In this document: positions 5,495-40,094 of the stretch, one piece after another | How the letters are laid out: each line of letters begins with the position of its first letter | How positions within the stretch are numbered: position 1 is the first letter of the stretch | Virus record (IMG/VR): IMGVR_UViG_3300037961_006176 | Location: 1-45,219 of that record | DNA: 45,219 nt | Origin: a virus | Reading direction: 5' to 3' (one strand) | Program-made: the position numbers and the translations under genes | The notes under the pieces: generated by a model | The model's input: only the letters and a program-made list of their open reading frames with translations | The model's database searches: none | What the model was told of the DNA's origin: nothing

Positions 5495-5497
5495 AAT

Positions 5498-6119: not shown

Positions 6120-6128
6120 AATTTTAAT

Positions 6129-12309: not shown

Positions 12310-13245
12310 TTAGATTTCAAAGGAACTTAATGCATTTATGTGGGGATTTAAATCTAATGACCATCCTAAATCACTAAAAAATCCTTCTAATTTATTTAAT
12401 AATATTGATTCAAATACTTTTTGCCTGTCAGCATATATATCTAAAAAATCTTTTATTTTATCTGGCATATCATAATCTAAAAATGCTAAAGCTTCTATTT
12501 TATATGGGTTATCTTTTAAATAAATCCATTTAACCTTATCCGCCATTGTTATTTGATTATGTTTTTTATCTAAATTCCAGAACTTTAATAAATCATTATA
12601 TCTAATAGCAGCTCTTACAGGTGCAGGAGCTCCCTTTTCTATATCAGAAAAAATTTCACCAGCACTTGCTTTTCTTCCTCTATATTTTTTTAATTTTTTA
12701 ACAGCTGTAGGGTTACCTAGTTTACCAATAGGTATTTCTCCATTTAATATTTGTTTTTTAAATTTTTTTATTTGATCTAATATTTCTTTATGTGGTACTC
12801 CTTTAAGTACTTGTTGTAATATGTTATTAAAAAAATCTCCTAAAATAGGTGGGAAGTTAGCTTTCATAAACTCTAAACCCTTAATATCTAGTGTTTCTTT
12901 TTCTATACCCTCTTGTTTAGTAATCCATTGAGCATATCTTCTAGTAGCTCTAAAATAAGCAGAACGAATAACACATTCTGTTTTCATTTCCAATCTATGA
13001 GAAGAAACATTAAAGCAATCTTTAGCTAATTGATCATAATGTTCTGTAATTATATCTTGGTAAGCTAAAGCTACCTTTTCCAGTTTATTATCTTTCTCTT
13101 TATCTGGTAAGCTTTCAAAGTTAGGAAATAAATGCAAAAGTATAGGTTCAGCATTAAAATAGTTCGAATCCGTGTCCACATAAGCGCAGTAATTAGTATC
13201 TTCTTTATCACAAATAAACCAAGGTGTTTCTTCTAAATGTTTCAT
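12310..13245 (-). CDS. 43: DNA polymerase family B (gp43), C-terminal part
   Basis: A 311-residue protein holding the missing half of the polymerase at 15933-17642. AYVDTDSNYF at residues 21-30 is family B motif C, with the two catalytic Asp. RRYAQWITKQEG corresponds to the KKRY/thumb entry motif after the palm. The C-terminal 150 residues (GRKASAGEIF onward) match the gp43 thumb region. Together the two parts give 880 residues against 898 for T4 gp43. It starts with its own ATG overlapping the previous gene by 4 bases. No intein residues are seen at the junction, so the halves must join non-covalently. Confidence 0.9.
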   Translation of the reverse strand: MKHLEETPWFICDKEDTNYCAYVDTDSNYFNAEPILLHLFPNFESLPDKEKDNKLEKVALAYQDIITEHYDQLAKDCFNVSSHRLEMKTECVIRSAYFRATRRYAQWITKQEGIEKETLDIKGLEFMKANFPPILGDFFNNILQQVLKGVPHKEILDQIKKFKKQILNGEIPIGKLGNPTAVKKLKKYRGRKASAGEIFSDIEKGAPAPVRAAIRYNDLLKFWNLDKKHNQITMADKVKWIYLKDNPYKIEALAFLDYDMPDKIKDFLDIYADRQKVFESILLNKLEGFFSDLGWSLDLNPHINALSSFEI

Positions 13246-15778: not shown

Positions 15779-15936
15779 TTTACGTATCCACTTTTAATTT
15801 TTTTAATCATATCTCTAATTTGATCATTCCAAAGACTCCAAGTGTCTCTATCCTGTTCAAAATAAGCTTGTTCACATCTAGTTTTTGTTTCACTTTCAAA
15901 AACATTTAATAGGTTTAGTAATTGATCTTTTATCAT
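15775..15936 (-). CDS. Small hypothetical protein, 53 residues, directly after gp43 N-terminal part
   Basis: Translating the minus strand from the ATG at 15936 gives a 53-residue, helical, charged protein (MIKDQLLNLLNVFESETKTR at the start, IRDMIKKIKSGYVK at the end). Its ATG overlaps the TGA of the polymerase gene (ATGA) and its own TGA overlaps the ATG of the cupin gene (ATGA), exactly as expected of a real coupled gene. No family recognised. Because it starts where the polymerase half ends, an interaction with the split polymerase is conceivable but not shown. Confidence 0.65.
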   Translation of the reverse strand: MIKDQLLNLLNVFESETKTRCEQAYFEQDRDTWSLWNDQIRDMIKKIKSGYVK

Positions 15937-17642
15937 AGTTCTAATTTTACTTCATTTTTAATTACTTTATTCATATGTTTATTAGCACATAAAGCTGATT
16001 CCTGGATAATACGGTGACCAGTTAATGTAATTGCTTCACTTAAAATAGATAAACTCATTCCATATCTAAATGAAGGTAAAGCTGTAGCACCATACAAACT
16101 GTTAAGCAAAATTTTCATTGTATATTGCATTAAGTAATAGTACTCACCTTTTTCTTTATCTCCAGCTTTATAAGCTAATTTCATTTTATTTTTATAATCT
16201 ACTCTTTCATCAAACCATTTATTTAAAATAGTTGATAATGTTGATTCTTTTTTAGTATCAAAAATACTCCCATTTGCTGATATAGCTAGTCCATTTTGTT
16301 CTATCATAGCTACTAGTCTACCTACATTAACTTTAGTTTGTTGTCCTTTAGGATTTTCAACTAATAATTCTTCATCTTGATCACGTTCCTTTAAATCATT
16401 AAGACCTAATCTATTATTTCTATCATCAGCATCTACTATTCTTCCAACAAATGTTTCTTTACCTATATTTAAAGACATTATAATAGATGGATATAGTGAA
16501 GTTAAATCCTCATCAAACATATATTTATACAAACCTGCTTTAGGGCAAAATAAGTAACCACCAGCATAACCTTTTTTACTTTTAGGATTAGGATCTTTGG
16601 CTGGGGGAATTATATTTTGAGATAATAGATAAGCTGAAATTGCTCCGTCTTGTGTATTACTATTAGCATAAACTTCACTATAATTATGTTTGCCTTTATG
16701 TGATAAGTTTTTAGTTAAAGCAATATACTGTAATTTTTCGTCTAGTAATTTTAGTATCTCAACATCACGAAAGTTATATTGAATGAATTTTTGAATATCA
16801 GTTTCAAATAATTGATCTAAATTACCCTCATATTCTACTTTACCTATACCTGTATATTTTTCTCCTATTGCATCTAATTTCCAACTAGGTTCATCTTTCC
16901 AACTATACTTTTTATGTAATCTCATATAGTCTAGGGATTCAACTCCTACAATATCTACAAATTGATTACGTTTAAAGAAATATTGATTACCTTTTTTAGC
17001 ATTTACTCTACTTATTGGTGATAATTCATTAGCAAATTCATCTCCTAATACATTGCACATTCTATAATATAAATAAGGTATATCAAAAAAATCACTATTA
17101 TAACCAATTAAAATATCAGGATCAATTTCTCTAAAATGTTCTAAAAAGTTAGCAAGTAAACTTTGTTCTGTGTTACAAGGTATAATTTCTTTATTTTTAG
17201 CTTTAGTACGTTTTAATTCGTCTTTTTTATCTAAAACTAAAATTACCCATTTATCTGGGGTTTTGTCCCAGTAGGCAATAGATGTAATAGGCATAGGAGC
17301 TCTTTCTATATACTCCTCAGTTAAAGCTCCTCCAATTTCACACTCTATATCAAAAAATAATTCTCTATGACCTGTAGATGGTTTATCATCAATACCATAT
17401 CTCTCAATAAGATATTTTTGATAAGGTTTCATATCATGGAAATGTAAATTAGGGGTGTTTTTATTCCATTCATAGGTCCTAATTAGATTTTCCCCATTAA
17501 TTCCCTTATCTGTAGCCTTGTCTTTAGAACATTCTTTATATGCAGTGTTATACCATTCAAGTTCATCATAACCTGCTTCATCCCATAAATGAATTTTATA
17601 TTTATTATTTCCTAACCTTGTGGCATAACATTTTTTATACAT
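15933..17642 (-). CDS. 43: DNA polymerase family B (gp43), N-terminal part
   Basis: A 569-residue protein with the exonuclease and first half of the polymerase domain. Exo I FFDIE is at 96-100, exo II YNSDFFD at 181-187, exo III YNFRDVE at 289-295, polymerase motif A DLTSLYPSII at 379-388, and motif B KILLNSLYGA at 510-519. It ends about 50 residues after motif B, before motif C, which is encoded separately at 12310-13245. All proofreading and motif A/B catalytic residues are intact, so this is a functional split, not decay. The TGA overlaps the next ATG. Confidence 0.93.
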   Translation of the reverse strand: MYKKCYATRLGNNKYKIHLWDEAGYDELEWYNTAYKECSKDKATDKGINGENLIRTYEWNKNTPNLHFHDMKPYQKYLIERYGIDDKPSTGHRELFFDIECEIGGALTEEYIERAPMPITSIAYWDKTPDKWVILVLDKKDELKRTKAKNKEIIPCNTEQSLLANFLEHFREIDPDILIGYNSDFFDIPYLYYRMCNVLGDEFANELSPISRVNAKKGNQYFFKRNQFVDIVGVESLDYMRLHKKYSWKDEPSWKLDAIGEKYTGIGKVEYEGNLDQLFETDIQKFIQYNFRDVEILKLLDEKLQYIALTKNLSHKGKHNYSEVYANSNTQDGAISAYLLSQNIIPPAKDPNPKSKKGYAGGYLFCPKAGLYKYMFDEDLTSLYPSIIMSLNIGKETFVGRIVDADDRNNRLGLNDLKERDQDEELLVENPKGQQTKVNVGRLVAMIEQNGLAISANGSIFDTKKESTLSTILNKWFDERVDYKNKMKLAYKAGDKEKGEYYYLMQYTMKILLNSLYGATALPSFRYGMSLSILSEAITLTGHRIIQESALCANKHMNKVIKNEVKLEL

Positions 17643-18640: not shown

Positions 18641-19659
18641 TAAGATATATGAATTAAACTTGACCATGTTTCATGTGAAACATCGGGGCAAAACTTACTA
18701 TTTGGATGTAGAATAACTGATATAGCATCATGTGAATGTAACGATTCTTGATGTGAACATATTACTCTAAAATCCTTTATTCTTTTATCTGCAATTAATT
18801 GCTCATATATTAATCTAGCAGCATCTTCTACAAATTTAAGATAAGAACCATTTAATTCAGCAAATGCCATTTCATCTTCTCTTTTTACTACTACTTGAGT
18901 TTCTGTATTGAGAGCTCTATCACACATTTCTTGTAATTCCTCTATCCAAACCATATCTTCAAATTCAATGGATATTCTAGCTACTGATCTTTGTGAATGT
19001 GATACTGTGGCTTTATTTCTATATTTTCTAGCATACTCAGCTAATTCATAAGAACAAGGACAAGCTGATGAATATACAAAATCAAAATGAATGTATTTTT
19101 TAAGTTCACCCTCTTTATTTAAATCACCTTCTAAAGTAACATTGTAATACTGGTAGCCCTCATTATCTGATCTTAGTGATTTTTTAATAATAGGGTAAGA
19201 AAATTTAAGTGCAATTTTAGAATCAAATGTATTTAATTTTTCCTTATAAGCATATAAAATATCTTTTAATTTATCTATACTAAAAGTATCATTTCTAAAT
19301 TCATAAAAGGATCTCATAATACGAGACATATTAATACCTTTTTTATGTGCTTCTAAAGATACTGTACCCGTTACTTTAGTTTCTAATTCTATATCACCAT
19401 TATCCCTTGTTGAATATTTTAGTGGTAATCTAAAATTATGGATTCCCACTTGTTGAATTTCAACGGGAGAACCTTGAATTAATGATGAAGGACCATTTTG
19501 CAAATCAGGAAAGGTTTCAATATCTTCCTTTGTAGCAATATAATCTGAATCATAATCCCTATTTGGTTCATTATATTTTATTGAATGTTCATTTGGTTCT
19601 GGTTCTTTGTAGGAATTTACATCTCCCACCCATTCATATTTTTTTTCGAATTTACTCAT
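18640..19659 (-). CDS. folE2: GTP cyclohydrolase FolE2 (type IB)
   Basis: A 339-residue enzyme. Family features are GIHNFRLPLKY early, KGINMSRIMRSFYEF (the FolE2 M-S-R helix), YSSACPCSYELAEYA with the metal-binding/catalytic Cys, SHSQRSVARISIEF, and the C-terminal ESLHSHDAISVI. The first 65 residues are an extra polar extension compared with bacterial FolE2 (about 270 residues). It converts GTP to 7,8-dihydroneopterin triphosphate, the first step toward 7-deazaguanine. Together with QueD, QueE and a QueC homologue it gives the pathway a GTP entry point. Confidence 0.92.
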   Translation of the reverse strand: MSKFEKKYEWVGDVNSYKEPEPNEHSIKYNEPNRDYDSDYIATKEDIETFPDLQNGPSSLIQGSPVEIQQVGIHNFRLPLKYSTRDNGDIELETKVTGTVSLEAHKKGINMSRIMRSFYEFRNDTFSIDKLKDILYAYKEKLNTFDSKIALKFSYPIIKKSLRSDNEGYQYYNVTLEGDLNKEGELKKYIHFDFVYSSACPCSYELAEYARKYRNKATVSHSQRSVARISIEFEDMVWIEELQEMCDRALNTETQVVVKREDEMAFAELNGSYLKFVEDAARLIYEQLIADKRIKDFRVICSHQESLHSHDAISVILHPNSKFCPDVSHETWSSLIHIS

Positions 19660-19786
19660 TTTCTAAATATTCTTTTAATTTATCTATTAATACTAATACT
19701 TCATCTGGTTCCATTGTTATTGCACAACAAACACCAACATTTTCCTCTATTTCCTCTAAAATTTCTAATGCTTCTTCTCTAGACAC
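19652..19786 (-). CDS. Small hypothetical protein between queE and folE2
   Basis: A 44-residue frame with a GTG start at 19786 that overlaps the queE stop; it ends 8 bases inside folE2. It is acidic and helical (EEALEILEEIEENVG, then DEVLVLIDKLKEYLENE) with two adjacent Cys in the middle. An upstream TTG at 19852 would give 66 residues but would overlap queE by 74 bases, and an internal ATG would leave about 20. The start is therefore uncertain. It fills an otherwise empty 119-base gap, which supports a real gene. Confidence 0.5.
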   Translation of the reverse strand: MSREEALEILEEIEENVGVCCAITMEPDEVLVLIDKLKEYLENE

Positions 19787-20561
19787 AACGCTCAGTATTA
19801 AATGCCATAATATGAGCTCTGCCCGTAAATCTCCAACCTCTATCCCTAGCAAAATTCATTACAGGTCCATAACTTTCAAATAAAGATTCCCTATCATCAC
19901 CAGCAGGCATAACCCAAACTTTATCATCTGGTATATTACATTCTTTAAGGAAATCTTCTACTTCACTAACCATAGATAATTTATTATCTAATACAGGTTT
20001 AATATGATAATCATCATGATACTCAATAGACTGTTTTATAGCTTCTACATTGCATCTTTTCGAGTTATGTTTTTTAACCATCCTTTCGTCGACAATTGCT
20101 CCTTGAGGAGTAGTAGCACCAATAACGGGAATGCTATTACTGAACTTAGGAGAAATTGAAAGGAGATTAATAGGATAATCAGTGGGAAGGAAATGACTTC
20201 CTTCAGTTTCGATAGTAATAAAGATATTATTTTCATGAGCAAAATGAGTTAATTCATTTACTAGAGCAGGATGCATTGTAGGAGAACCTCCTGTTAACAT
20301 CATCTCCTTTATATGAGGATGATCATTATACATGTCAATAATATCTTGGAAACAATAAGTACCTTTTTCTGGGTGAATACTTGTATACCAAGAATCACAC
20401 CAACCCCCCTCTCCAAAATAACATCTATGTGTGCATCCTGATGTTCTAACAACAATTGTAGGATAACCTTGTCTTGATCCTTCTGATTGTACTGCGGTGT
20501 AAAGTTCTAACACCCCTAGAGTCTTTTGATAGTCCTCTATTCTTTTTAATTGTTTGTGCAT
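19779..20561 (-). CDS. queE: 7-carboxy-7-deazaguanine synthase QueE (radical SAM)
   Basis: A 260-residue enzyme. LGVLELYTAVQSEGSRQGYP is the usual QueE start. The cluster motif is C-x3-C-x7-C (CTHRCYFGEGGWCD), longer than the standard C-x3-C-x2-C because of an insertion. MMLTGGSPTMHP is the GGE-like motif, IFITIETEGSH a later strand, and LLSISPKFSNS the S-P-K motif of QueE. It turns 6-carboxy-tetrahydropterin into 7-carboxy-7-deazaguanine. It lies between queD and folE2 in the cassette. Confidence 0.9.
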   Translation of the reverse strand: MHKQLKRIEDYQKTLGVLELYTAVQSEGSRQGYPTIVVRTSGCTHRCYFGEGGWCDSWYTSIHPEKGTYCFQDIIDMYNDHPHIKEMMLTGGSPTMHPALVNELTHFAHENNIFITIETEGSHFLPTDYPINLLSISPKFSNSIPVIGATTPQGAIVDERMVKKHNSKRCNVEAIKQSIEYHDDYHIKPVLDNKLSMVSEVEDFLKECNIPDDKVWVMPAGDDRESLFESYGPVMNFARDRGWRFTGRAHIMAFNTERCV

Positions 20562-20605
20562 ATTGTTAATTTTTTAAAGTGGTTTTTCATTCACTAATAA
20601 CCTTT

Positions 20606-21070
20606 TTATTCGCTATAATAAGCTGCATTTTTGCCGTGTTCCATAAACTTAACTTTAGTAACTCTAACTCTACCTTCAGTTTCAGTATCAACAAACTTAT
20701 TAAGCTTATTATAAATATATTCAGCAAATTTCTCTGCGCCAGTAGCCGGTATTACTCTTACTTGAGCTACTCCAGCTGTGTCCATTTCCTTAAATGCATT
20801 AATATATGGATCATCCTCAGCAACTATTAGAGTATGATCAAACATATAATCCATCCATTCTTTAGGTGATTTACCATCAATTTTAGTTTTGGCTCTTTTC
20901 ATACCACCAAAATCCCAAACCCAATTTCTTTCATCTAAACCTCCTTCAAAATAAACTTTAAATGAAATTCCATAACCGTGAATAAATCTACAGTGTGTTG
21001 TTTCTGCTTTCCATTGACGGAACACTGTACTAAATCCGTCAAATACTTTACTTGATTGAAATTTACCCAT
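20606..21070 (-). CDS. queD: 6-carboxy-tetrahydropterin synthase QueD
   Basis: A 154-residue member of the PTPS/QueD family. THCRFIHGYGISFKVYF holds the catalytic Cys and the H-G-(H/Y) metal-site segment, VWDFGGMKR is the D-F-x-x-(L/M)-K motif, and MFDHTLIVAEDD contains the D-H-x-x-L motif. GAEKFAEYIYNKL replaces the common P-T-x-E-N-x-A helix. It makes 6-carboxy-tetrahydropterin from dihydroneopterin triphosphate, the FolE2 product. It overlaps the thioredoxin gene by 8 bases. Confidence 0.88.
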   Translation of the reverse strand: MGKFQSSKVFDGFSTVFRQWKAETTHCRFIHGYGISFKVYFEGGLDERNWVWDFGGMKRAKTKIDGKSPKEWMDYMFDHTLIVAEDDPYINAFKEMDTAGVAQVRVIPATGAEKFAEYIYNKLNKFVDTETEGRVRVTKVKFMEHGKNAAYYSE

Positions 21071-21311
21071 TATAAAAATTTAATATTTGTGCGTCTGGTT
21101 GGTTACCAACTAAACGTCTTAATTCTTGACCATTTTGGTCAACTAAAACTAAACTAGGAACACTTCTAACTCCATACTTCATAGACATTTCTCTATTTTG
21201 ATCAATATCTATTTTTTTGTAATTAATTTGCCCCTTTAACTTTTCCATTCTCGGTGCTAGTGCCTTACAAGGACCACACCATGCTGCTGTAAAATATAAA
21301 ATTGTATTCAT
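21063..21311 (-). CDS. Thioredoxin
   Basis: An 82-residue small thioredoxin. FTAAWCGPCKALAPRM has the WCGPC active site. YKKIDIDQNREMSMKYGVRSVPSLVLVDQNG supplies the rest, including the cis-Pro loop (SVPSL). It is shorter than E. coli thioredoxin (108) but similar to phage thioredoxins and glutaredoxin-length forms. It can reduce ribonucleotide reductase (nrdA/nrdB are at 30186-32889) or other phage enzymes. It overlaps queD. Confidence 0.9.
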   Translation of the reverse strand: MNTILYFTAAWCGPCKALAPRMEKLKGQINYKKIDIDQNREMSMKYGVRSVPSLVLVDQNGQELRRLVGNQPDAQILNFYNG

Positions 21312-21313
21312 AA

Positions 21314-21532
21314 TTAAACTAATTCTTCTATTATACCTATTAACTCACTAAATATAAGAACCCCTACTGCAATAGGCACGGAATATAGTAAAAGTCCATA
21401 ACCAGCTAATCTAAAGCCGGATTTAATAAAACTTACAATTTGATGCCATTTTTGATTTGGCATATATTCTAAATTTTCTCTATCTTTTTTAATACTGTTA
21501 AAATCTTTCATATTTTTATTTTTTATATCCAT
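21314..21532 (-). CDS. Small single-span membrane protein
   Basis: A 72-residue protein with a polar, charged N-terminal 40 residues and one hydrophobic segment at about 44-65 (GYGLLLYSVPIAVGVLIFSE). It ends IIEELV. The ATG at 21532 overlaps the upstream glycosyltransferase stop by 10 bases; an ATG seven codons in (21511) is also possible. No family recognised. Confidence 0.6.
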   Translation of the reverse strand: MDIKNKNMKDFNSIKKDRENLEYMPNQKWHQIVSFIKSGFRLAGYGLLLYSVPIAVGVLIFSELIGIIEELV

Positions 21533-22419
21533 TCTTTAATTTCATTAAATACATATTCTGGTGTGATGCTAGTATGACATTCAAATTGTCTGGGTGTGTT
21601 TTTATGTTCAGGGCACCAATACCAATCACTAACATCAAAAACTTTATCTTTAGAATTCCAACAACCATGACAAACATTTTTATTAGTTATTCTTTTGTAA
21701 TTATTTAAGTTTAAATCAAATTCATGCCAATCTTCTGTAAAATTAGCTATCATAGCAACTGGTTTATCTAATGCATGAGCAACCCAAGCAATACCCGAAG
21801 ATAACCCAATATAAAACTCTGAATGCTCTATATAATTAATTACTTCAGATAAAGGTAAATTTAATTTTTTAACTGATTTTTTAGGTGTTCCATTAAAAAA
21901 TGGACTCTTACCAAATAATTCATGTTGGTCTAAACAAACAGGAGTAATTCCTTCTTTTCTTAACATTCCACATAATTCTTTCCAATAAGGAGATTCTGGT
22001 TGTTTTCTAATTCCCTGTGGAGAGTTCCAATATTTTAATTGACTTGTTGACTGAATGCCAAAAGTAACATACTTACTTTTTATTGGTCTTTCTTTTTTAA
22101 ATGAATCAATTTTAGGTCTTATATATCCTGGGTTTTCGAATCCTAATTGTTCAGCCATACCTTGTTGTAATGGGCTATGAAAATTATAATTAACATCTAA
22201 TGATACATCAAAAGGTTGTGTTCTAGAATTAAGATAATTATCGTCTACAAATATAATATTTGGGTATGATTTAATAAATAAGTTATGAAAATATCTATTA
22301 GCAAAAAAATAAACATTGCAGTTATGTTTTTGTCTATATAATTCTAGATAAGGCATTAGAGCAATAGTATCTCCTAATGATTTAGATAATAAATTAATTA
22401 AATGGTCTTTTATTATCAC
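21523..22419 (-). CDS. TibC-like (BAHT) O-heptosyltransferase
   Basis: A 298-residue GT-B enzyme of the GT9 type. LLSKSLGDTIALMPYLELYR at the start and SEFYIGLSSGIAWVAHALDK in the donor domain match heptosyltransferases, in particular the bacterial autotransporter heptosyltransferase (TibC/AAH) family. The C-terminal part has four Cys (C-x2-C in NVCHGCWN, then WCPEH and FECHTS), as in the iron-finger motif of that family. It would transfer heptose from ADP-heptose to Ser residues of a protein. ADP-heptose enzymes are encoded at 37274-38382. The start is GTG, overlapping the preceding stop (TAGTG). Confidence 0.78.
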   Translation of the reverse strand: MIIKDHLINLLSKSLGDTIALMPYLELYRQKHNCNVYFFANRYFHNLFIKSYPNIIFVDDNYLNSRTQPFDVSLDVNYNFHSPLQQGMAEQLGFENPGYIRPKIDSFKKERPIKSKYVTFGIQSTSQLKYWNSPQGIRKQPESPYWKELCGMLRKEGITPVCLDQHELFGKSPFFNGTPKKSVKKLNLPLSEVINYIEHSEFYIGLSSGIAWVAHALDKPVAMIANFTEDWHEFDLNLNNYKRITNKNVCHGCWNSKDKVFDVSDWYWCPEHKNTPRQFECHTSITPEYVFNEIKEWI

Positions 22420-22610
22420 TATTTTCCTCCGTTCTTTCTATAATCAATTATAAACCCAATAGCTACTAAAATATTTAAACCTAAACTAGCTAATATCTCA
22501 TGTATATCTTGATACACATTTAAACTTAAATGAACATGCCCTATAATCCAAAACGGAATAGCCATTTGCTGACTATACCAAATTAAAGCAAATTCTAAAA
22601 ATTTTTTCAT
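22419..22610 (-). CDS. Small membrane protein, 63 residues
   Basis: A 63-residue protein with two hydrophobic segments (about 6-28 and 41-56) and a basic end (DYRKNGGK). The frame is open further upstream to an ATG at 22694, but that region is the tRNA-Gln gene, so the ATG at 22610 (MKKFLEFALIWY) is chosen; it follows an AAAATT leader like many genes here. The stop overlaps the next GTG start. Family unknown. Confidence 0.65.
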   Translation of the reverse strand: MKKFLEFALIWYSQQMAIPFWIIGHVHLSLNVYQDIHEILASLGLNILVAIGFIIDYRKNGGK

Positions 22611-22622
22611 AATTTTAATTTG

Positions 22623-22693
22623 TAGTCTCATAAGGATTCGAACCTTAACTAGCTGGACCAAAACCAGCTGTGCTACCGTTACACCATGAGACA
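22623..22693 (-). tRNA. tRNA-Gln (anticodon UUG)
   Basis: The minus strand folds into a full cloverleaf of 71 bases. It has a D-arm GTGT/GCAC, an anticodon stem GCTGG/CCAGC with loop TTTTGGT (anticodon TTG, reading CAA), a 4-base variable loop, and a T-arm TAAGG/CCTTA with loop TTCGAAT. The acceptor stem pairs at six positions; the first pair is T-T, in line with the weak first pair of Gln tRNAs. CCA is not encoded. It lies 6 bases after queC. Reading CAA fits the AT-rich codon use of this phage. Confidence 0.92.
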
Positions 22694-22699
22694 ATTGTA

Positions 22700-23524
22700 T
22701 TATTTTGAATACTCAGATAATACTTTTGCTACTGAATCTCTTGCTACTTCCCAAGTAACAGGCCCCGTTTCATCAGCATATTCTACTGGGTCAGGTCTTC
22801 CTAATGCAATAAAAGCTTCAATTCTTTCTACTGATGAAGCTGATTTATAATCAGAATACCATTTCCAGGCGTTAGTTTCAGGTCTATAATAGTGTTTAAT
22901 AGGCTTATAAGATGTGTTAGTTCTTGAATAAACTTCATCAAACTCTAATCCTAATTCCTCACATAATTCTTCTCCATCTTTTAAAATACCTAATTTATCA
23001 GTATCTAAATAAGGAGTAAAATAACCAACTCTATCAGCATCCCAATTACCAACTCTAAATGCATTGTCGTCTGCATCTCTAAATTCTTGTCTACAATCAG
23101 GATAAATAGCATGATCACCAGCGTGGATACCTAAACAAATATCAACATTTTCTTCTGTAGCATTTGCCTTAGATAAAGCTACTGCTTGAGTAATAGAAGC
23201 GAACATTTTATTTCTATTAGGTACTACTGTTTCTTTCATATTATCTTGCTCATAATGTCCTTCTGGAACATCATCTCCACCTTCTACTAAAGCGGAATTT
23301 AACAAATCAACTAAACCATCAAGTTTAATTTGTTTGTAAGTAATATTAAAGCCTTTACTTGCTAAATAATCTATAAGAGACTGTGCTCTTTCTAGTTCAA
23401 CTCTATGCTTTTGACCATAATCAAAAGATAAAGCTGTAACTGAACTGTACTCAGATAACGCCCTGAGTAAAAGTGTGGAACTATCCATTCCGCCACTTAA
23501 CGATACAACTGCATGATTATACAT
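22700..23524 (-). CDS. queC: QueC-family protein lacking the zinc site
   Basis: A 274-residue PP-loop protein. VVSLSGGMDSSTLLL is the ATP-binding loop, VTALSFDYGQKHRVELERA the next QueC motif, VVPNRNKMFASI the third, and YPDCRQEF and YFTPYL follow. In ordinary QueC four Cys near the end bind zinc (C-Y-x-G ... C-G-x-C-x-x-C). Here the region reads RTNTSYKP ... YSDYKSASSVERIEAF with no Cys at all. Canonical QueC turns the 7-carboxy compound into preQ0; this one may differ, for example a decarboxylase of the DpdL type. It overlaps dpdA by 8 bases. Confidence 0.85.
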   Translation of the reverse strand: MYNHAVVSLSGGMDSSTLLLRALSEYSSVTALSFDYGQKHRVELERAQSLIDYLASKGFNITYKQIKLDGLVDLLNSALVEGGDDVPEGHYEQDNMKETVVPNRNKMFASITQAVALSKANATEENVDICLGIHAGDHAIYPDCRQEFRDADDNAFRVGNWDADRVGYFTPYLDTDKLGILKDGEELCEELGLEFDEVYSRTNTSYKPIKHYYRPETNAWKWYSDYKSASSVERIEAFIALGRPDPVEYADETGPVTWEVARDSVAKVLSEYSK

Positions 23525-24353
23525 TGTTAACTAAATTTAAAAATGACCCAGTATGTTCTGGATAGGGCCTCAATCCATTTATTTTTCTAAACATAGAAGT
23601 ATTATGTAAAATATCTTCATAGTTAATATCTGTAAATTTAACATCAAAATGATCATTCATATTTGCTTTAGGTTTTTCTGTTAATCCACTTTCATCATAT
23701 TTAATGCCTTCTAAAGCAGCCATTACTGGGTTTGATGTATCAATAGATTCTATAAATTTAAAATCTCTATACCATCCAAATTCTTGAGGTACTGCACAAC
23801 CTAATAAATGAATTCTATCATATACACCTAATCCTTCTTCTTGGATTAATTTACTAATAAATGTTAATCTACCTAATGCTTTACCTAAATCTTTATTTAC
23901 ATGAGGATATAAATCATTATACCAAGTAGCACCATAAGAAATAGCTATTTTTTTATAACCTAATTCTTTTAAATTTCTAAAACTCTTCCAAGCATCAACA
24001 TAATCTTTTCCTTGAACTACAGCTACTCTAGTACAATTTTTAGGCATTTTAATTCCTCTCCAATATTTAGCATATACTTGAGTTTGAGTATAATCCATCC
24101 ATTCATCTGGGACTATAAATTCATTAGGGCATAATTCATGTAACCAATACATTAATCTTTTCCAATCATACGCTTTTCCTAATTCATGTAGTGAATTATC
24201 CATAACAATATATCTTCCTGCTTTTTTAGCATCGAAAAAATATTTCTTATACTCTTCATCTTGATCTAAAAGATGGGGGAGACAATAGTCATAATCATTA
24301 AATTCTTGGGATGCTAATAAAAGACATCTAGGTACTTCGTGACTTACTTTCAT
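23517..24353 (-). CDS. dpdA: DpdA-like DNA guanine transglycosylase
   Basis: A 278-residue TIM-barrel protein of the tRNA-guanine transglycosylase superfamily, in the compact phage DpdA form. Barrel strands can be followed: RYIVMDNSLHELG (Asp52, a candidate catalytic residue), NEFIVPDEWMDYTQT, TRVAVVQGKDY, KKIAISYGATWY and IHLLGCAVPQEFGW, with FIESIDTSNPVMAALEG near the end. The zinc Cys/His set of tRNA enzymes is absent. It would swap guanine in DNA for a 7-deazaguanine base. I use the ATG at 24353; a TTG at 24389 would add 12 residues. It heads the cassette with queC. Confidence 0.82.
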   Translation of the reverse strand: MKVSHEVPRCLLLASQEFNDYDYCLPHLLDQDEEYKKYFFDAKKAGRYIVMDNSLHELGKAYDWKRLMYWLHELCPNEFIVPDEWMDYTQTQVYAKYWRGIKMPKNCTRVAVVQGKDYVDAWKSFRNLKELGYKKIAISYGATWYNDLYPHVNKDLGKALGRLTFISKLIQEEGLGVYDRIHLLGCAVPQEFGWYRDFKFIESIDTSNPVMAALEGIKYDESGLTEKPKANMNDHFDVKFTDINYEDILHNTSMFRKINGLRPYPEHTGSFLNLVNNV

Positions 24354-24395
24354 ATAACTAACGTTACGAAACTTGTTTATATTTTCCAAATAATT

Positions 24396-32895: not shown

Positions 32896-34260
32896 TTATT
32901 TAAATTCTTTTAATTTGTTCCATAACATTTGTTTATCATAAGAATCAACATCTGTATCAAACTTATTTGTTGTTGTTTTAGGGGCTAATTCAGTTTCTTC
33001 TGTGTCTTTGTAATCAAATACCTCAAAATGACCTGTTGACGTATCTGCATTAACAGAAAAAGTAAGACCATCCATACCATATCTATTTTTCATAATATGA
33101 AAACGACCAGTACCGTTAACCTTATCTTCTTTTTTTCGTGATAAAGACATAGCAAAATCAGATATCATCATTTTATCGTATGATCCTGCTGCTTTATCCC
33201 CTTCTATAATTTTATCTTGCGCTCCAGCTCTATTTACCTGGGAAACAGACCAAATAGGGACGTTAAGTTGTCTAGCTAATCCTTTTGCGCTGCTATAAAT
33301 ATCATCAATTTCATCTTTACGTTCACGAGTTTTCTTTCTTCCTGAAAGAAGGTCTACATAATCAATAATTACTAAATCTGCTTTGATCCCCATGTCTGCA
33401 CATTTACCAAGATGTGATTCAATAGTTGACATTGTTGCCCTTCCTGTAGGAAATTCTTTGATAACTAATTCACCTGGTAGTTGAGGTATTGTTTCTTCTA
33501 CCTTTTCTTTAAATGAATTAATTTTAGTAACTGGTATTTTAGTAAAGAAAGAATCATATCTTCTACCTACATAATCTTCACCCAATTCTAAAGTATAATG
33601 TACTACATTATATCCTAATCTAACAGCATAACCACCTAAAGCTACAAGAGACCATGATTTACCACCTCCAGGATTACCAAAAATAAGACCAAAATCTCCA
33701 TTTCCCAATCCACCTTGTAATAATTCATTAATACGTTCCCAAGGTGTAGGTATAGTAATTCTTGAATTTTTTCTATATCTGTCTTCAATATTTTTATTAT
33801 ATTCATGACCTAAATTTTTATCTTGTCCAGCTTTTAAAGCATTATCTACAATAGTTCTTATACCATCAAAATCTCCCGCTTTAAGTAAATCAACTGAGGT
33901 CATTAATGCCTTTTTTAATTGTTGATTTTTACAAAAATTAGTAAATTCTTCACGTACATATTCTAAATCTTCATCTGAGGTAACGTAAGCTAATTTTAAT
34001 TGCTCTTTAATAGATACTTGTAATACATCATTATCTACTTTTTGTAATTCAACTTTTAATACTTCTAATGAAGGTGTAGTATGATACTTATCATAGTACT
34101 TTAAAATTTCTTTAATTGCCCATTTTTGAGCTTGGTTTTCAAAATATTCATCAGATATAATATCATGAATATTGGTTAAAAACTCTTTATGTGTTAATAA
34201 AGAAGATAAAACCTTTATTTGAAAATCAGAACCATATTGATTTATACTATTAAGCGTCAA
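32896..34260 (-). CDS. 41: Replicative DNA helicase, gp41-like (DnaB family)
   Basis: A 454-residue helicase. Walker A GNPGGGKS is at residues 195-202, and the RecA-like core follows with ADLVIIDYVDLLSG (Walker B, DnaB type) and NVPIWSVSQVNRAG (motif H3). The N-terminal domain (residues 1-150) fits the DnaB-type helical domain. It unwinds DNA ahead of the fork as a hexamer. No ATG is near; the frame begins at a TTG (34260) that overlaps the RNase H stop by 11 bases, so the start is probably TTG. Confidence 0.93.
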   Translation of the reverse strand: MTLNSINQYGSDFQIKVLSSLLTHKEFLTNIHDIISDEYFENQAQKWAIKEILKYYDKYHTTPSLEVLKVELQKVDNDVLQVSIKEQLKLAYVTSDEDLEYVREEFTNFCKNQQLKKALMTSVDLLKAGDFDGIRTIVDNALKAGQDKNLGHEYNKNIEDRYRKNSRITIPTPWERINELLQGGLGNGDFGLIFGNPGGGKSWSLVALGGYAVRLGYNVVHYTLELGEDYVGRRYDSFFTKIPVTKINSFKEKVEETIPQLPGELVIKEFPTGRATMSTIESHLGKCADMGIKADLVIIDYVDLLSGRKKTRERKDEIDDIYSSAKGLARQLNVPIWSVSQVNRAGAQDKIIEGDKAAGSYDKMMISDFAMSLSRKKEDKVNGTGRFHIMKNRYGMDGLTFSVNADTSTGHFEVFDYKDTEETELAPKTTTNKFDTDVDSYDKQMLWNKLKEFK

Positions 34261-35296
34261 ATTTATAACCTTTAAATTGTGTAAATATATCTTTTAACCA
34301 AATCTCTAAATTTCTAATCATTCCTCCTAATTTATCTTCATTATATAATTGAACAAATATTTCACTATTTAAATCAGGTAAATCTGATTCCGTCAATTTG
34401 TCTAAATATTCTATTTCATTATTATCAATCATTGGAGCTGATAAATCCATAACCTTATAACTTGTTTCCAACCTATTTCTATCTTGTATTATCCTAGAAT
34501 ATACAACATGATCTTTAAATTTCCTAGCAGATATATCAAAAATGTCTTCTAATGTTAAATTGTGAGTTTTTAATTCAGGAAATTTTTTAAATATTCCTTT
34601 TACTCCCAAACCCTTTACCCCTGGAATTTTATCTGAATTATCTCCTAATAATGTTTTATATAATATAAAATTATGAGATAATACACCGAATTTTTCCTTA
34701 ACTGTATCTGAATTATAGTATTCTTTTTCCATTGGTCTGTATAAAATAATTTTATCAGATACTAATTGTACAAAATCTTTATCACTAGAAACTATAAAAC
34801 AAGTTGAATTATATTTTTCTACTAATTGTTTAGATAACACGGCTATAACATCATCTGCTTCCACTTTATCAAATGCTATAGTTTTTATGGGTAATAACTT
34901 TAAATATTGAATTAAACGTACTATTTGGTCAACTTTTGAATCATGTTCTTCCTCTAAATTATCAAATGCATCCCAATTAGTAATTCTTTGTAAATTTCTA
35001 TCTTGTTTGTACTCGGGGAGCAGGTTCTTGCGGTTGGTAGATGAACCCGCTCCATCGAATACTACATAAACAGAGGTTGGTTGAGTTTGTTTAATTAAAG
35101 CACCTAAAGAACGTAAAAATCCACCTAGTCCTCCTATATGAACACCATCAGGATTTACCATATTTAACATTGCAAAATTTCTAAAAAATAAATTTAAACC
35201 ATCTATTATTAGAACTTTATCATGTCTTTTTAATTGTGGTTCCTCCCCGTTCTCCTGAACTGAGTCCAGCAGATTAAATAGTTCTTTATGCTTCAT
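34250..35296 (-). CDS. rnh: 5'-3' exonuclease / RNase H, T4 rnh-like
   Basis: A 348-residue FEN1/RNase H-family nuclease. Metal-site Asp/Glu motifs appear in order: KVLIIDGLNLFFRNF, VYVVFDGAGSST, DKVEADDVIAVLSK, FIVSSDKDFVQLV, and LLGDNSDKIPGVKGLGVKG (the helix-hairpin-helix part). It removes RNA primers and flaps during lagging-strand synthesis. T4 RNase H has 305 residues. It lies between uvsX and the helicase, in the replication run. Confidence 0.88.
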   Translation of the reverse strand: MKHKELFNLLDSVQENGEEPQLKRHDKVLIIDGLNLFFRNFAMLNMVNPDGVHIGGLGGFLRSLGALIKQTQPTSVYVVFDGAGSSTNRKNLLPEYKQDRNLQRITNWDAFDNLEEEHDSKVDQIVRLIQYLKLLPIKTIAFDKVEADDVIAVLSKQLVEKYNSTCFIVSSDKDFVQLVSDKIILYRPMEKEYYNSDTVKEKFGVLSHNFILYKTLLGDNSDKIPGVKGLGVKGIFKKFPELKTHNLTLEDIFDISARKFKDHVVYSRIIQDRNRLETSYKVMDLSAPMIDNNEIEYLDKLTESDLPDLNSEIFVQLYNEDKLGGMIRNLEIWLKDIFTQFKGYKFDA

Positions 35297-35301
35297 TGTT
35301 A

Positions 35302-36378
35302 TTATTCTGGTTCCTTCTCAAATTGAGAAATATCTCTTACTTCTTCATTTTCCTCTACAACATCAAAATCCATACCCCCTAATATTTTAGACCATTCAGC
35401 TGCATGATTAGATTTATATTCTTTTAAATCCTTATCACTATCTAAAATAAAACCATGAGGTGTCATTACAATTCTACCTCTAGTTGTAACTCCATTAATA
35501 TGGTTTTTATCAATTTGTATATTAGCTCTTTTAGCAAATTCTACCTGCTTACCATCTTTAATTGCTTTAATTTTAGATGTTCCAGCAGACATAATATTAC
35601 CAAATGTAACTACGAATGTTGAATCAAACCACATTGCATAACCACCCTTATTCATTAATTTAGGTTTACCCATAGGTGATTCTGGTTTTAATGTCCAAAC
35701 TTTATTAACACAAACTAATGTATTAGTATAAGGTGAAGATTCTTTTCTTGATAATGTAATTCTTTGATTAACATTATTTCCAAATTGAGTTGACATAGCA
35801 CCTGCATTCCATTCATTATTATTTTTATTTGATTTAAGTGACATTTCACAAGGCACTGATCCTATACTATCCCATAAGAATAATAAATCATAAGGTAAAT
35901 TACCTTTTTTCTGTTCATCCATTAAATCTAAAATAAATCCAGCTACGTCTTCTATTGAATTAATAGTTTCTCTATCTATATAAATAAAGTTACCATCATA
36001 TCCTACAATTTCACCTGTTTCTGGGTGTTTTTCAACTTTGATATCTAGCCCCATTTGAATTGCATGTTCCCAATTCCATTTCATCTCAGTAATGATAAAA
36101 ACGGGCAGTATATTTCTCTTTTGAGCTGATACTGCCGCTTCAATCATTGCAGTTGTTTTACCTGTGTCTGAATGACCTCTAAGTAAAACAATATGACCCA
36201 TAGGAATACCAGGGATCGAAGTAACTTCTTGAAATGCAGATGAAAGAGGAATCCATTGTTGTTCCTTAAATTTAATATTTTTATCTAATCCTTTTTTATT
36301 TTTAAAATTAGATAAATCAAATTTACTCCTTAACTCAGCTGATACAGCTGCTGTTAATGATTCTTTCTTTCTTGCCAT
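35302..36378 (-). CDS. uvsX: RecA-like recombinase, UvsX
   Basis: A 358-residue protein. Walker A GHSDTGKT is at residues 68-75; YDLLFLWDSIGSVP is the Walker B strand, and QFGNNVNQRITLS plus NTLVCVNKVW form loops 1-2 of the RecA core. T4 UvsX has 391 residues, and its N-terminal polymerisation segment (NFKNKKGLD) is reduced here. It forms filaments on ssDNA and drives strand exchange and recombination-dependent replication. Its ATG overlaps the gp32 stop (TAATG). Confidence 0.92.
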   Translation of the reverse strand: MARKKESLTAAVSAELRSKFDLSNFKNKKGLDKNIKFKEQQWIPLSSAFQEVTSIPGIPMGHIVLLRGHSDTGKTTAMIEAAVSAQKRNILPVFIITEMKWNWEHAIQMGLDIKVEKHPETGEIVGYDGNFIYIDRETINSIEDVAGFILDLMDEQKKGNLPYDLLFLWDSIGSVPCEMSLKSNKNNNEWNAGAMSTQFGNNVNQRITLSRKESSPYTNTLVCVNKVWTLKPESPMGKPKLMNKGGYAMWFDSTFVVTFGNIMSAGTSKIKAIKDGKQVEFAKRANIQIDKNHINGVTTRGRIVMTPHGFILDSDKDLKEYKSNHAAEWSKILGGMDFDVVEENEEVRDISQFEKEPE

Positions 36379-37211
36379 TAATTAAATAAATTATCAAATT
36401 CGTCTTTTTTCGTTTGTTTTGCCTGTGAAGTGTCTAAACTAAATTTAGATTTAGCCTCTTCTTTTTCCCAAGGTAAATCCTTAGGATCGTTATCAAAATC
36501 AGTAGGTGATTCAGAAATAATATCACCTTCTTCATGTGAATCCTCTGGTGCTAACCATTTTTCCAATGCTGATTTCATTTCATCAAACGTATAACGCTTA
36601 AATAATTCTTTAGGATTTGGTTGTTCTTTTAACCATCCCTCTACTTGTTTGCTATCCTCACTAAGTGGAGTTGTTTTTAACCTTACTCTAACTGAAGATC
36701 TGTTATAAGGAGTACCAGTAACTTCAGGACCTACTGTTTCTACAGTTAAATCTCTACCTGATGCTACATCAGTGTAGTCTCCAATTTCTTCATCAACAGC
36801 TAAAGCTAATAATTCTTCATATACTGTTTTACCAAATTGCCATAATCTAACCCCTTTATCTTCTTCACCTCTAACTACTACAGGAACGAAAACTCGGTTT
36901 TTAGCATCTAGCTTTTTAGCAAGTACATAATTTTCCTTATTATACTCTTCTCTTAATTTTTGAGCAAATAATTGAATAGGGTCTTTTTCACCAAAATTTA
37001 AAGGTGAAATCATAACCTTATTTGTAATACCATAATAGAACTTAAGTTCTGTAAATGGGTTTTTAGGATCAAATGCACTAGGCACGATTCTAACTTGTTG
37101 TTTACCTACAGTTGGTCTCCAGAATATTTTAGTATAATCTGTTTTTTGTCCACCTGTGGTTTGTTTTTGTTGGAGGTTATCCAACTTCTGTTTAAGTAAT
37201 GATAAATCCAT
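36378..37211 (-). CDS. 32: Single-stranded DNA-binding protein, gp32-like
   Basis: A 277-residue protein. A basic Leu/Lys-rich start (LLKQKLDNLQQKQ) corresponds to the cooperativity domain, then YTKIFWRPTVGKQQVRIVPS and NPFTELKFYYGITNKV form the OB-fold core, and KGVRLWQFGKTVYEELL is a core helix. The tail is acidic (DNDPKDLPWEKEE) as in gp32, where it contacts other replication proteins. The protein has no Cys, so the zinc site of T4 gp32 is absent. T4 gp32 has 301 residues. A CGTATATT motif lies 26 bases before the ATG. Confidence 0.88.
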   Translation of the reverse strand: MDLSLLKQKLDNLQQKQTTGGQKTDYTKIFWRPTVGKQQVRIVPSAFDPKNPFTELKFYYGITNKVMISPLNFGEKDPIQLFAQKLREEYNKENYVLAKKLDAKNRVFVPVVVRGEEDKGVRLWQFGKTVYEELLALAVDEEIGDYTDVASGRDLTVETVGPEVTGTPYNRSSVRVRLKTTPLSEDSKQVEGWLKEQPNPKELFKRYTFDEMKSALEKWLAPEDSHEEGDIISESPTDFDNDPKDLPWEKEEAKSKFSLDTSQAKQTKKDEFDNLFN

Positions 37212-37273: not shown

Positions 37274-38005
37274 TTAAATAACTACAACTCCTTTTTTTTC
37301 TACAACCTCTAAAGCACACTTTTGTGCAAAAGCAATACTTTCGATAACATTTTTACTAGTTAAATAGCTAAAAACAAAGGCAGCAAAAAAAGTATCTCCC
37401 GCCCCTGATAAGTCAGAAACTTCTGCCTTTCTTTGAGGTGGAATAATTGTATCATTATATTTAACCCCATTTTCACCCAATGTAACTAATAAATTTCCTT
37501 TATAATTTTTTAAATATTTTTGATTTTTATCAAATTCAAACTCATTTATTTTTATAAATGTAGTTTCATTTATCCATTTATCAAATATTTTTTTAGAGTC
37601 AATAAAAGATAAAGGATATTTATCAATAAGATATTGAATAATCCTTTCTGTTAAAAAACCTTTATTATAATCACTAATTACAACAGCATCATAGTCTCCT
37701 AATCTAGTGATAACATCATTTTTTACCCTTTTACAACTATCATCCTCATCTACTCTTAATAACATTTGGTTAGTTTTAATATCAACTAATCTTGTTTTTG
37801 TAATTTCATCTTCATTAGTAACCAAATCTATATCCCAATTTTTAGCTAAACTTGCTAAATTATTAAAAACATTTTTAGCCATTCCTCCATTTGATTTTTG
37901 TTCAATAGGATTAAATACAGGTACAGGAGCTTCAGGGCAAATTCTATTACATTCACCGTAAACAAATTTATCTATACAACTATCTCCTATAACTAATACT
38001 TTCAT
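37274..38005 (-). CDS. HldE-type heptose-7-phosphate kinase (PfkB/ribokinase family)
   Basis: A 243-residue sugar kinase. KVLVIGDSCIDKFVYGECNR is the RfaE1/HldE start, PEAPVPVF plus SNGGMAKNVFNNL the substrate loop, and SDLSGAGDTFFAAFVF the PfkB signature with catalytic Asp. It is shorter than the HldE kinase domain (about 310) through loss of part of the lid. With the adenylyltransferase gene just upstream (overlap ATGA) it would make heptose 1,7-bisphosphate, two steps before ADP-heptose. The two enzymes are a fusion in many bacteria. Confidence 0.85.
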   Translation of the reverse strand: MKVLVIGDSCIDKFVYGECNRICPEAPVPVFNPIEQKSNGGMAKNVFNNLASLAKNWDIDLVTNEDEITKTRLVDIKTNQMLLRVDEDDSCKRVKNDVITRLGDYDAVVISDYNKGFLTERIIQYLIDKYPLSFIDSKKIFDKWINETTFIKINEFEFDKNQKYLKNYKGNLLVTLGENGVKYNDTIIPPQRKAEVSDLSGAGDTFFAAFVFSYLTSKNVIESIAFAQKCALEVVEKKGVVVI

Positions 38006-38382
38006 TTTAAAATATTTGAGGTTGAATAATTACCTATACGATCAAAATATACAATTTTTTTAGCATATTGACCACCTACTATTTCCTTACCTTTCCAATC
38101 ACTTCCTACAACTAAAATATCAGGTTGTTCTTTTTGAACTAGCCATTCTAAGTGGTCTTTAGAATCAAAAACATAAATTTGATCTATAGCTTTTAAACTT
38201 TCTAAAGCATAATGTCTATCTTCTAGGTTATTATAAGGTCTATCTGGTCCCTTATCTTGAGCTACTTTTTCATCAGAATCAATTCCAACAACAAGATAAT
38301 CACCTAATGATTTAGCATAATTGAATAATTCAAAATGTCCTCTGTGGAGAATATCAAAACAACCATTTACCCAAATTTTCAT
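38002..38382 (-). CDS. HldE-type heptose-1-phosphate adenylyltransferase
   Basis: A 126-residue nucleotidyltransferase. WVNGCFDILHRGHFELFNYA contains the H-x-G-H motif of the cytidylyltransferase fold. YLVVGIDSDEKVAQDKGPDR, PYNNLEDRHYALESL and YSTSNIL are the remaining family motifs; S-T-S is the nucleotide-binding end. Close to the HldE/RfaE2 C-terminal domain (about 130 residues). It would join heptose-1-phosphate to AMP, giving ADP-heptose. It overlaps the kinase gene by 4 bases. A glycerol-3-phosphate cytidylyltransferase is the main alternative, less likely beside the kinase. Confidence 0.85.
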   Translation of the reverse strand: MKIWVNGCFDILHRGHFELFNYAKSLGDYLVVGIDSDEKVAQDKGPDRPYNNLEDRHYALESLKAIDQIYVFDSKDHLEWLVQKEQPDILVVGSDWKGKEIVGGQYAKKIVYFDRIGNYSTSNILK

Positions 38383-38389
38383 AACCTAA

Positions 38390-38857
38390 TTATACTTCTA
38401 TAATCTTATGTATTTTTGTATTTAACTGATTTAGATCATTGTGTTGAGTCAGTAAAATACAATTTCTATAGTGTTGCCAATCTACTTGATAACTAGTATC
38501 AACAACACCACCATTTAATTTCTTAATTAATTCGTTTAAAGCGTTTATTGTATATAAAGTATTCGATTCTTTTTTTCTATGTACTAGGATTGTATTATCA
38601 GGAATTGTATGAACATTAGCCTGTTCAACATTGTAAGTAACTACATACTCATCTTTACCTACAATTTCTAAAACAAATAATTTATTGTAAATAATAGTGT
38701 ATTTAGATTTTATATCCTCAATTAACCCATCAAGGCCATTTAAATCAGTAAAAGTACAAAATAATTTATTATTCAAATCTCCTAAAATTTTGATGTCACT
38801 AATAACATCATAACTCGGATTATACGTATTGTAATTATCTGTTAAAATTGTAGTCAT
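38390..38857 (-). CDS. Hypothetical protein paired with the family A-like polymerase
   Basis: A 155-residue protein of unknown function. Its mixed alpha/beta sequence includes YDVISDIKILGDLNNKLFCT, KLFVLEIVGKDEYVVTY, NTILVHRKKESNTLYTINAL and an end IHKIIEV. No signal peptide, membrane segment or familiar motif. I take the ATG at 38857, overlapping the polymerase-like gene by 23 bases; a GTG at 38866 is three codons earlier. The long overlap suggests coupled translation and possibly a partner of that polymerase. Confidence 0.6.
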   Translation of the reverse strand: MTTILTDNYNTYNPSYDVISDIKILGDLNNKLFCTFTDLNGLDGLIEDIKSKYTIIYNKLFVLEIVGKDEYVVTYNVEQANVHTIPDNTILVHRKKESNTLYTINALNELIKKLNGGVVDTSYQVDWQHYRNCILLTQHNDLNQLNTKIHKIIEV

Positions 38858-40094
38858 AACCTTCACTTTCCTTTATGTTAAGATCGTATTTTTTAAATAC
38901 TTCTCTAACTTTATCTATGACCGAAGCTTCTTCTTCGGCAAAATCAAATAAGAATGAATCATACGTATATAATACTAAACGCGTCTTCTTACCCTTCAGT
39001 ATACTAAAAATATCCCACAAAGCCAAAACATTTTGAGATGTTTCCATATTTTGTAAAACATAATTAAATAACTTTTGCGGATTCATATTATCCAATTTAT
39101 TTTTTTCTAATTTAAAACTTGAAATCGGACACTCAATATACCCCTCATTATTAAATATATCCCAAGTATTTTTTACAAACTTTTCTATCCTACTAAAAAA
39201 TTCCAGGTCTTTGTAATTATCGAAAACTCCTCCGTATAGTTGTTTAAATGTCAATTCCTTAGCTTTTTGATAATCTACTTTATATAATGATGCAAAGTGA
39301 CTATGTATATCACTTGTTGGAAATTTATACCCAACTAATTTAGCCGCTAAAGTAGGATGATAAGCACTAATATCAATTTCTATAAATTTATCATTACGCG
39401 GTATAAAACTTTCTCTACAACCATTATCTTTATTTAAAGCCGCATAATTAACACCTTTAAATTTATTTGATGGTCTTGTAGTTAACGTTTTTAAATTGTA
39501 CTGTGTGTAAACTCGCTCACTATTAATGGAATGGAAATATCCTTCGAATCTAGGTACGTGTACTCGAATTCCACTTCGCTCGATAGCGTTGAATACCACT
39601 GATACTCTATTGTTAAAGAATTCATCATAATCTGTTTTTGTTTTATCTATATTATCTTTTAAATCATTAAATATTTGCTCACACAATTCATAATGTTTTA
39701 CAACTGGTATTGATTTATTATCAACTCCTCTATTATAAAATATATCATGTGATTTTGTTGATGGTCGTATATACGTAGTAGGGGGTGTGTTTATGTCATA
39801 AAGAGTTTTTAGAGGAAAATAATGTAATATTTCCTTTTTATCCCTACAATATAATACTTTAAACTTTTTTAATATTGCGTCTATATGCGTTTTATCATTG
39901 TTAAATGTTTCGCTATGGTCAATACTTAATATAAAGCCTTTACTTGATTGTATTGGTTTAATATACACCAAAGACACGCTATTTTGCGTTGGGTGTTCGG
40001 CATGATCTGTTGGTATAACTTCAATAAATGCCTCGTTATAACCGCTATTGTAAAATTGTGTTAATTGATCTAAATCTTCTATAAGCCAATACAT
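38835..40094 (-). CDS. Family A-like DNA polymerase with altered motif C
   Basis: A 419-residue protein. Family A motifs occur in order: TTRPSN at 205-210 (the R-x-S motif), FIPRNDKFIEIDISAYHP at 230-247 (motif A, Asp241), SDIH at 261-264, KAKELTFKQLYGG at 277-289 (O-helix/motif B), and LVLYTYDSFLFDF at 373-385. The last replaces the usual His-Asp-Glu by Tyr-Asp-Ser (378-380) but keeps the Asp. The first 110 residues may be a decayed exonuclease domain. It is much shorter than Pol I or T7 polymerase. It could be a repair, priming or translesion enzyme beside the gp43 replicase. Confidence 0.75.
   Translation of the reverse strand: MYWLIEDLDQLTQFYNSGYNEAFIEVIPTDHAEHPTQNSVSLVYIKPIQSSKGFILSIDHSETFNNDKTHIDAILKKFKVLYCRDKKEILHYFPLKTLYDINTPPTTYIRPSTKSHDIFYNRGVDNKSIPVVKHYELCEQIFNDLKDNIDKTKTDYDEFFNNRVSVVFNAIERSGIRVHVPRFEGYFHSINSERVYTQYNLKTLTTRPSNKFKGVNYAALNKDNGCRESFIPRNDKFIEIDISAYHPTLAAKLVGYKFPTSDIHSHFASLYKVDYQKAKELTFKQLYGGVFDNYKDLEFFSRIEKFVKNTWDIFNNEGYIECPISSFKLEKNKLDNMNPQKLFNYVLQNMETSQNVLALWDIFSILKGKKTRLVLYTYDSFLFDFAEEEASVIDKVREVFKKYDLNIKESEGYDYNFNR

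Follow-up and report, generated by a model that had tools for sequence, protein, structure and literature searches.

A predicted thumbless variant of family A DNA polymerase, encoded with a constant partner gene among the replication genes of T4-like phages

The stretch of DNA analysed here, referred to below as the window, comprises positions 1-45,219 of IMG/VR record IMGVR_UViG_3300037961_006176 and is 45,219 nucleotides long. Its minus strand carries an open reading frame at 38835..40094 that encodes a protein of 419 amino acids, which we call mini-PolA, while the plus strand across the same interval contains many stops and is closed to reading. A sequence-only reading of this DNA had described the protein as a second, family A-like DNA polymerase. 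The coordinates, the length, the order of the motifs (R-x-S, A, O-helix and C), the Tyr-Asp-Ser triplet and the two aspartates Asp241 and Asp379 that it gave are all correct, on the minus strand. The PHROG_17 profile (DNA polymerase) matches residues 194-397 of the window protein at 9e-6. Searches of Pfam and NCBIfam with the window protein alone returned nothing useful and left DNA_pol_A unmatched; the Pfam DNA_pol_A profile (PF00476) does match 22 of 62 diverse relatives, the best at 8e-13, so that this family is reached solely via relatives and profiles and not by the window protein singly.

The number of confirmed relatives depends on the query, being 150 for the window protein, 312 for the copy in Flavobacterium phage immuto and 109 for the copy in Microcystis phage Mel-JY01, three sets that may overlap. 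A viral scan with a jumbo-phage copy as query gave zero confirmed relatives. The carriers form a large group of T4-like phages from marine and freshwater environments, in which the reading frame is intact across hundreds of contigs and sequence identity reaches down to 22%. The immuto copy (gp001, YP_010114413.1) is 33% identical to the window protein and the Mel-JY01 copy (WWT39333.1) is 31% identical, and both have the same neighbours. The former is annotated as "DNA polymerase family A" and the latter as "hypothetical protein".

Downstream of mini-PolA on the minus strand lies a small gene of unassigned fold family (38390..38866, 158 amino acids), which we term the partner. Its reading frame is listed from a GTG and overlaps the end of mini-PolA; an ATG at 38857 is the likelier start. 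In mini-PolA loci the partner is 130-160 amino acids long, and it comes next after mini-PolA, on the same strand, in all 204 of the 204 loci with room for it, at a median gap of 23 bp. In the reverse direction mini-PolA lies upstream of the partner in 75/75 partner loci with room, all of them from the clade of the window, which makes this a weaker test than that against phage records, where mini-PolA and partner occur in the identical 6 of 50,697. The C-terminal portion of the partner, about 125 residues, is 58% identical to its counterpart in immuto, as against 33% for the polymerase. Its predicted model has a pLDDT of 78.5 and a disordered N-terminus, and comparison of that model with the PDB gave no significant match. 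Resemblances to EF-G/ACT-like and origin-binding-domain-like folds were weak and below the level at which we would trust them, and no family is claimed.

After mini-PolA and its partner the same strand carries, in order, genes for a gp32-like single-strand DNA-binding protein (36378..37211; PF08804, 3e-10), a UvsX/RecA-like recombinase (35302..36378; phrog_97, 1.6e-12), a Pol I-type 5'-3' exonuclease of the flap/RNase H-like kind (34250..35296; PF02739, 5.5e-37) and a DnaB/gp41 replicative helicase (32896..34260; PHROG_19, 5.8e-80). The order of these four genes is identical in immuto and Mel-JY01. Wherever it was found, the gp32-like gene is downstream of mini-PolA and on the same strand (211/211 loci), and the recombinase, 5' nuclease and helicase genes share the strand of mini-PolA in 184/184, 130/130 and 89/89 loci respectively. 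In the window a PfkB-type kinase and an RfaE-like nucleotidyltransferase gene (37274-38382, minus strand) stand between the partner and gp32, and immuto has a single hypothetical gene at the place of these PfkB/RfaE-like genes. Elsewhere on the minus strand of the window is a GroEL-like chaperonin gene (8681-10309; PF00118, 7e-61), and GroES/GroEL are also found in immuto.

The window also encodes a family B replicase (PolB) in two genes, in agreement with the description of mini-PolA as a second polymerase. The N-terminal half (15933..17642; PF00136, 5e-23 and PF03104, 1e-21) contains the exonuclease, motif A (DLTSLYP) and motif B (NSLYG), and the C-terminal half (12310..13245; PF20286, 4e-5 and PF00136, 7e-4) contains motif C (VDTDS), the split thus falling between motifs B and C. 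Five genes separate the halves. Cupin/mannose-6-P isomerase-like, FkbM methyltransferase and DUF6165 genes are among them, and Pfam recognised no homing endonuclease in the five. Contigs related to the window show PolB divided in the same way, with the halves at other distances, and a further split PolB (in G009) belongs to another clade. In the Mel-JY01 clade PolB is mostly intact, with one split case. In the immuto clade, which has T4-like structural genes, PolB is not detectable and there is instead a full-length PolA (L081, NC_055915.1 37898-40231) whose exonuclease motifs are intact and look active. PolB or full-length PolA is present in every carrier record larger than 150 kb, and mini-PolA is not the sole or main polymerase in these phages.

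Phylogenetic analysis places the mini-PolAs in one clade with 100/100 support, in which the window, Mel-JY01 and immuto groups are nested and which is separate from full-length immuto gp199, E. coli Pol I and HMO-2011 PolA; the branches to the jumbo copy and to the outgroups are long, and the deep order is unsure. Mini-PolA is therefore retained alongside intact PolB, split PolB or a full-length PolA of the proofreading type, and an enzyme kept through such changes of replicase is not itself the replicase. Nor is it easily seen as a divergent but otherwise ordinary replicase, or as a replicase paralogue in decay. Membership of family A and the presence of a full-length PolA in the immuto clade speak for that idea, but a separate clade with full support, intact in hundreds of contigs and coexisting with PolB or PolA, makes it highly improbable.

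To examine the fold, an AlphaFold model of mini-PolA was built with 62 aligned relatives (pLDDT 93.8, pTM 0.91). The top Foldseek matches of this model in the PDB are all Pol I-family proteins, with E about 1e-16. VIA-align superimposes about 395 of the 419 residues on residues 300-876 of the Bacillus (Bst) Pol I large fragment with a Z of about 27 and an rmsd of 3.3 A, at about 16% identity to the bacterial Pol I large fragment. Since the structural alignment starts at Bst residue 300, the N-terminal 150 or so residues correspond to the exonuclease platform and the remainder to palm and fingers. The palm and fingers fold, whose absence had been named beforehand as the outcome that would count against a polymerase, is present in the predicted structure. 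By its predicted fold mini-PolA is thus confirmed as a genuine family A (Pol I superfamily) polymerase, and this end-to-end match agrees with the PHROG_17 match and with the profile alignment to Pol I described below. It is classed as a family A variant and not as a standard member because the thumb subdomain is absent.

Residues 1-150 (39645..40094) form a vestigial 3'-5' exonuclease domain from which the catalytic acids are gone, as the suggestion of a decayed N-terminal exonuclease had anticipated. The proofreading signature DxE ... D ... YxxxD is lacking; DxE is absent and position 25 varies among E, I, V, D, K and G in the relatives. The platform of Bst and KlenTaq is likewise inactive, while full-length phage PolAs such as immuto gp199 retain the exonuclease DxE, N..D and Y..D, in contrast to mini-PolA. 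A global hhalign alignment of the N-terminal half with Pol I was misaligned and was discarded. The thumb appears to be replaced by a short linker at residues 176-203 (39486..39569). E. coli Pol I has 124 residues between the conserved Gly that opens the palm and the Arg of motif 1; nearly all mini-PolAs have 20, 32 or 38 there (range 20-38), and the AlphaFold model has one 7-residue helix at the position of the thumb. From this spacing and the predicted secondary structure, the thumb is deleted in mini-PolA; the fingers are also shorter than those of Pol I.

A profile-profile alignment with hhalign (E 5.5e-12) allows the active site to be read against E. coli Pol I. It equates R207 with R668, D241 with D705, H246 with E710, K279 with K758, F283 with F762, Y287 with Y766, N344 with N845, Q348 with Q849, Y378 with H881, D379 with D882 and S380 with E883. 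Conservation was counted over about 250 unique relatives (248-251 at the positions counted), and R207, D241, H246, K279, Q348 and D379 show no variation in any relative that has the position. Arg207, within the motif TxTRPSN (39474..39476), is conserved in 249/249 relatives. In motif A (39357..39374) both Asp241 and His246 are found in 250/250, and in motif B or the O-helix (39231..39260) Lys279 is found in 251/251 and Phe283, Tyr287 and Gly288 (G767 in Pol I) each in 250/251. Motif C (38955..38963) has Tyr378 in 247/248 and Asp379 in 248/248, followed by Ala in 127 and Ser in 121 relatives and never by Glu. Mini-PolA therefore contains the features by which family A is recognised, namely the Asp of motif A, the K...F...YG of motif B, the Asp of motif C and the Arg of motif 1. 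It lacks three that are common in the family and not strictly defining, the steric-gate Glu, Arg754 and a His-Asp-Glu motif C: the first is replaced by His in every relative, the position of R754 is Tyr in 243 relatives and Arg in 8, and motif C is Tyr-Asp-Ser/Ala. At the position of R841 there is Gln or Asn.

The two aspartates had been proposed to bind the catalytic metals, and their invariance suggests that the enzyme is probably active. The Tyr-Asp-Ser triplet had been singled out as an oddity, a view that has to be revised. The phage PolA of Tt72 naturally has Ser at the position of E883 and is active, and among its mutants S616A keeps 76% of the activity while D384A and D615A keep 4% (PMC9324360). 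The Ser in motif C of mini-PolA is therefore no sign of inactivity. What is truly unusual is the absent thumb together with a sugar gate that is His without exception; in Pol I the Glu at this position serves as steric gate (PMC9324360). The absent thumb, this His and the constant partner gene were not part of the sequence-only reading.

Mini-PolA may be compared with several known systems. With the bacterial Pol I large fragment (Klenow, Bst, KlenTaq) it shares the fold and motifs 1, A, B, 6 and C; it differs in that the thumb is absent and the fingers are shorter, and in having His in place of E710, in most cases Tyr in place of R754, Gln or Asn in place of R841 and Tyr-Asp-Ser/Ala in place of His-Asp-Glu. 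The phage PolA replicases (immuto gp199, HMO-2011, Staphylococcus Twort-like and Tt72) also belong to family A, and an Asp-Ser motif C is found in those of HMO-2011, the Staphylococcus phage and Tt72. The three phage PolAs examined are, however, 680-1061 amino acids long, have HDS or HDQ as motif C and keep the equivalents of the Glu gate (E710) and of Arg754, and the Tt72 enzyme has a thumb (PMC9324360). Group 2.2 jumbo phages encode a split minimal DNA polymerase III beside a T4-like PolB (PMC7824862). That enzyme belongs to family C (pol beta fold) and is made from two separate genes, whereas mini-PolA is a family A protein; conceptually, the arrangement is the closest precedent. Profiles of mini-PolA and the partner found no match at E 10 in T4, RM378, HTVC008M, P-SSM2 or S-PM2. 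A model for the pair of mini-PolA and partner is provided by T7 DNA polymerase with thioredoxin and mitochondrial Pol gamma with its accessory subunit, family A enzymes that owe their processivity to a small partner. These partners bind thumb or spacer elements, which mini-PolA lacks, and no relation of the phage partner to thioredoxin or the Pol gamma accessory subunit was found.

Taken together, mini-PolA is probably an accessory DNA polymerase for short synthesis coupled to the single-strand DNA-binding, recombination and 5'-nuclease proteins, and it is from the gene neighbourhood that we infer a specific role in gap filling or recombination. Two metals held by D241 and D379 would support ordinary templated addition of dNMPs, and the absence of a thumb would make the enzyme distributive and confine it to short patches, synthesised without proofreading. 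It could fill gaps and extend the 3' ends left by the 5' nuclease, as in Okazaki fragment maturation, and it could extend the 3' ends that arise from UvsX strand invasion in recombination intermediates. The partner might bind the polymerase, DNA or gp32 and so tether or recruit mini-PolA in place of a thumb, although, with a recognisable fold absent, its action as a tether is a guess. Against this reading stand the changes in residues that normally contact the incoming nucleotide or the template (His for E710, Tyr for R754 in most relatives, Gln/Asn for R841 and Tyr for H881), because of which the chemistry could differ from that of a usual DNA polymerase, and the broken motif B of one pair of close relatives, L075 and L076. 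An obligate two-subunit enzyme, in which the phage partner supplies the grip on DNA and the His sugar gate gives an unusual nucleotide preference such as rNTP tolerance or RNA-primer extension, is conceivable but rather doubtful.

The same features have to be weighed for other functions. The lack of exonuclease acids, an open DNA-binding cleft left by loss of the thumb, altered positions E710 and R754 and the proximity of UvsX and gp32 would all suit a translesion polymerase that inserts opposite damaged or modified bases when the replicase stalls. Mini-PolA is linked, however, to core replication genes and not to scattered repair genes, and we regard such a function as unlikely. The suggestion that it might be needed for templates containing 7-deazaguanine is not borne out by the large carriers. 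A 7-deazaguanine gene set (FolE2-type GTP cyclohydrolase, radical SAM, QueC and DpdA-like) lies at 18640-24389 on the minus strand of the window, as in immuto, and QueC and DpdA are present in both. In Mel-JY01 (190 kb), LR756508 (484 kb) and G001 (177 kb), by contrast, neither QueC above the cut-off nor DpdA was detected, in a search by which a divergent DpdA could be missed, and the association with these genes thus fails.

An enzyme that accepts ribonucleotides, for synthesis or extension of primers, could be read from the His found in place of the Pol I steric gate in 250/250 relatives and from the Ser or Ala after the catalytic Asp, both of which might permit rNTPs; an Asp-Ser motif C resembles that of single-subunit RNA polymerases. 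Yet His is bulky and could act as a gate in the way that Tyr or Phe does in other families, F283 and Y287 of the DNA polymerase O-helix are retained, and homologues of the immuto DnaG-type primase are present in every carrier record larger than 150 kb that was tested. We give ribonucleotide use little credence, and a primase-like role is unlikely: mini-PolA has a family A fold with no TOPRIM or AEP primase core, and a separate DnaG homologue is present. A catalytically dead polymerase fold that scaffolds or regulates the replisome together with the constant partner would account for the lost thumb, the dead exonuclease and the changes at R754 and E710. It is nevertheless improbable because D241, D379, K279, R207 and Q348 are unvarying in 248-251 relatives, where drift of the kind observed at exonuclease position 25 would be expected.

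A literature search, with most subscription journals outside its scope, found no paper on the mini-PolA family, gp001 or WWT39333.1, and the thumbless subfamily and its partner appear to be undescribed so far. The usual account of phage replication assigns one phage polymerase to each genome, whereas in this widespread lineage of aquatic phages the main polymerase has changed while a second, minimal one and its partner have been kept. Mini-PolA is a natural system in which to ask how small a part of Pol I suffices for activity, what a strictly conserved His does at the sugar gate and what an additional polymerase contributes to recombination-driven T4-like replication, and it is open to experiment because phage immuto and its host, Flavobacterium sp. 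LMO8, have been isolated. Natural variation extends to motif B, which is broken in one pair of close relatives (L075, at 5001-6290, and L076) by the changes Y287 to N and G288 to S; the metal-binding aspartates and the His are intact in both, which may represent a natural partial loss of function.
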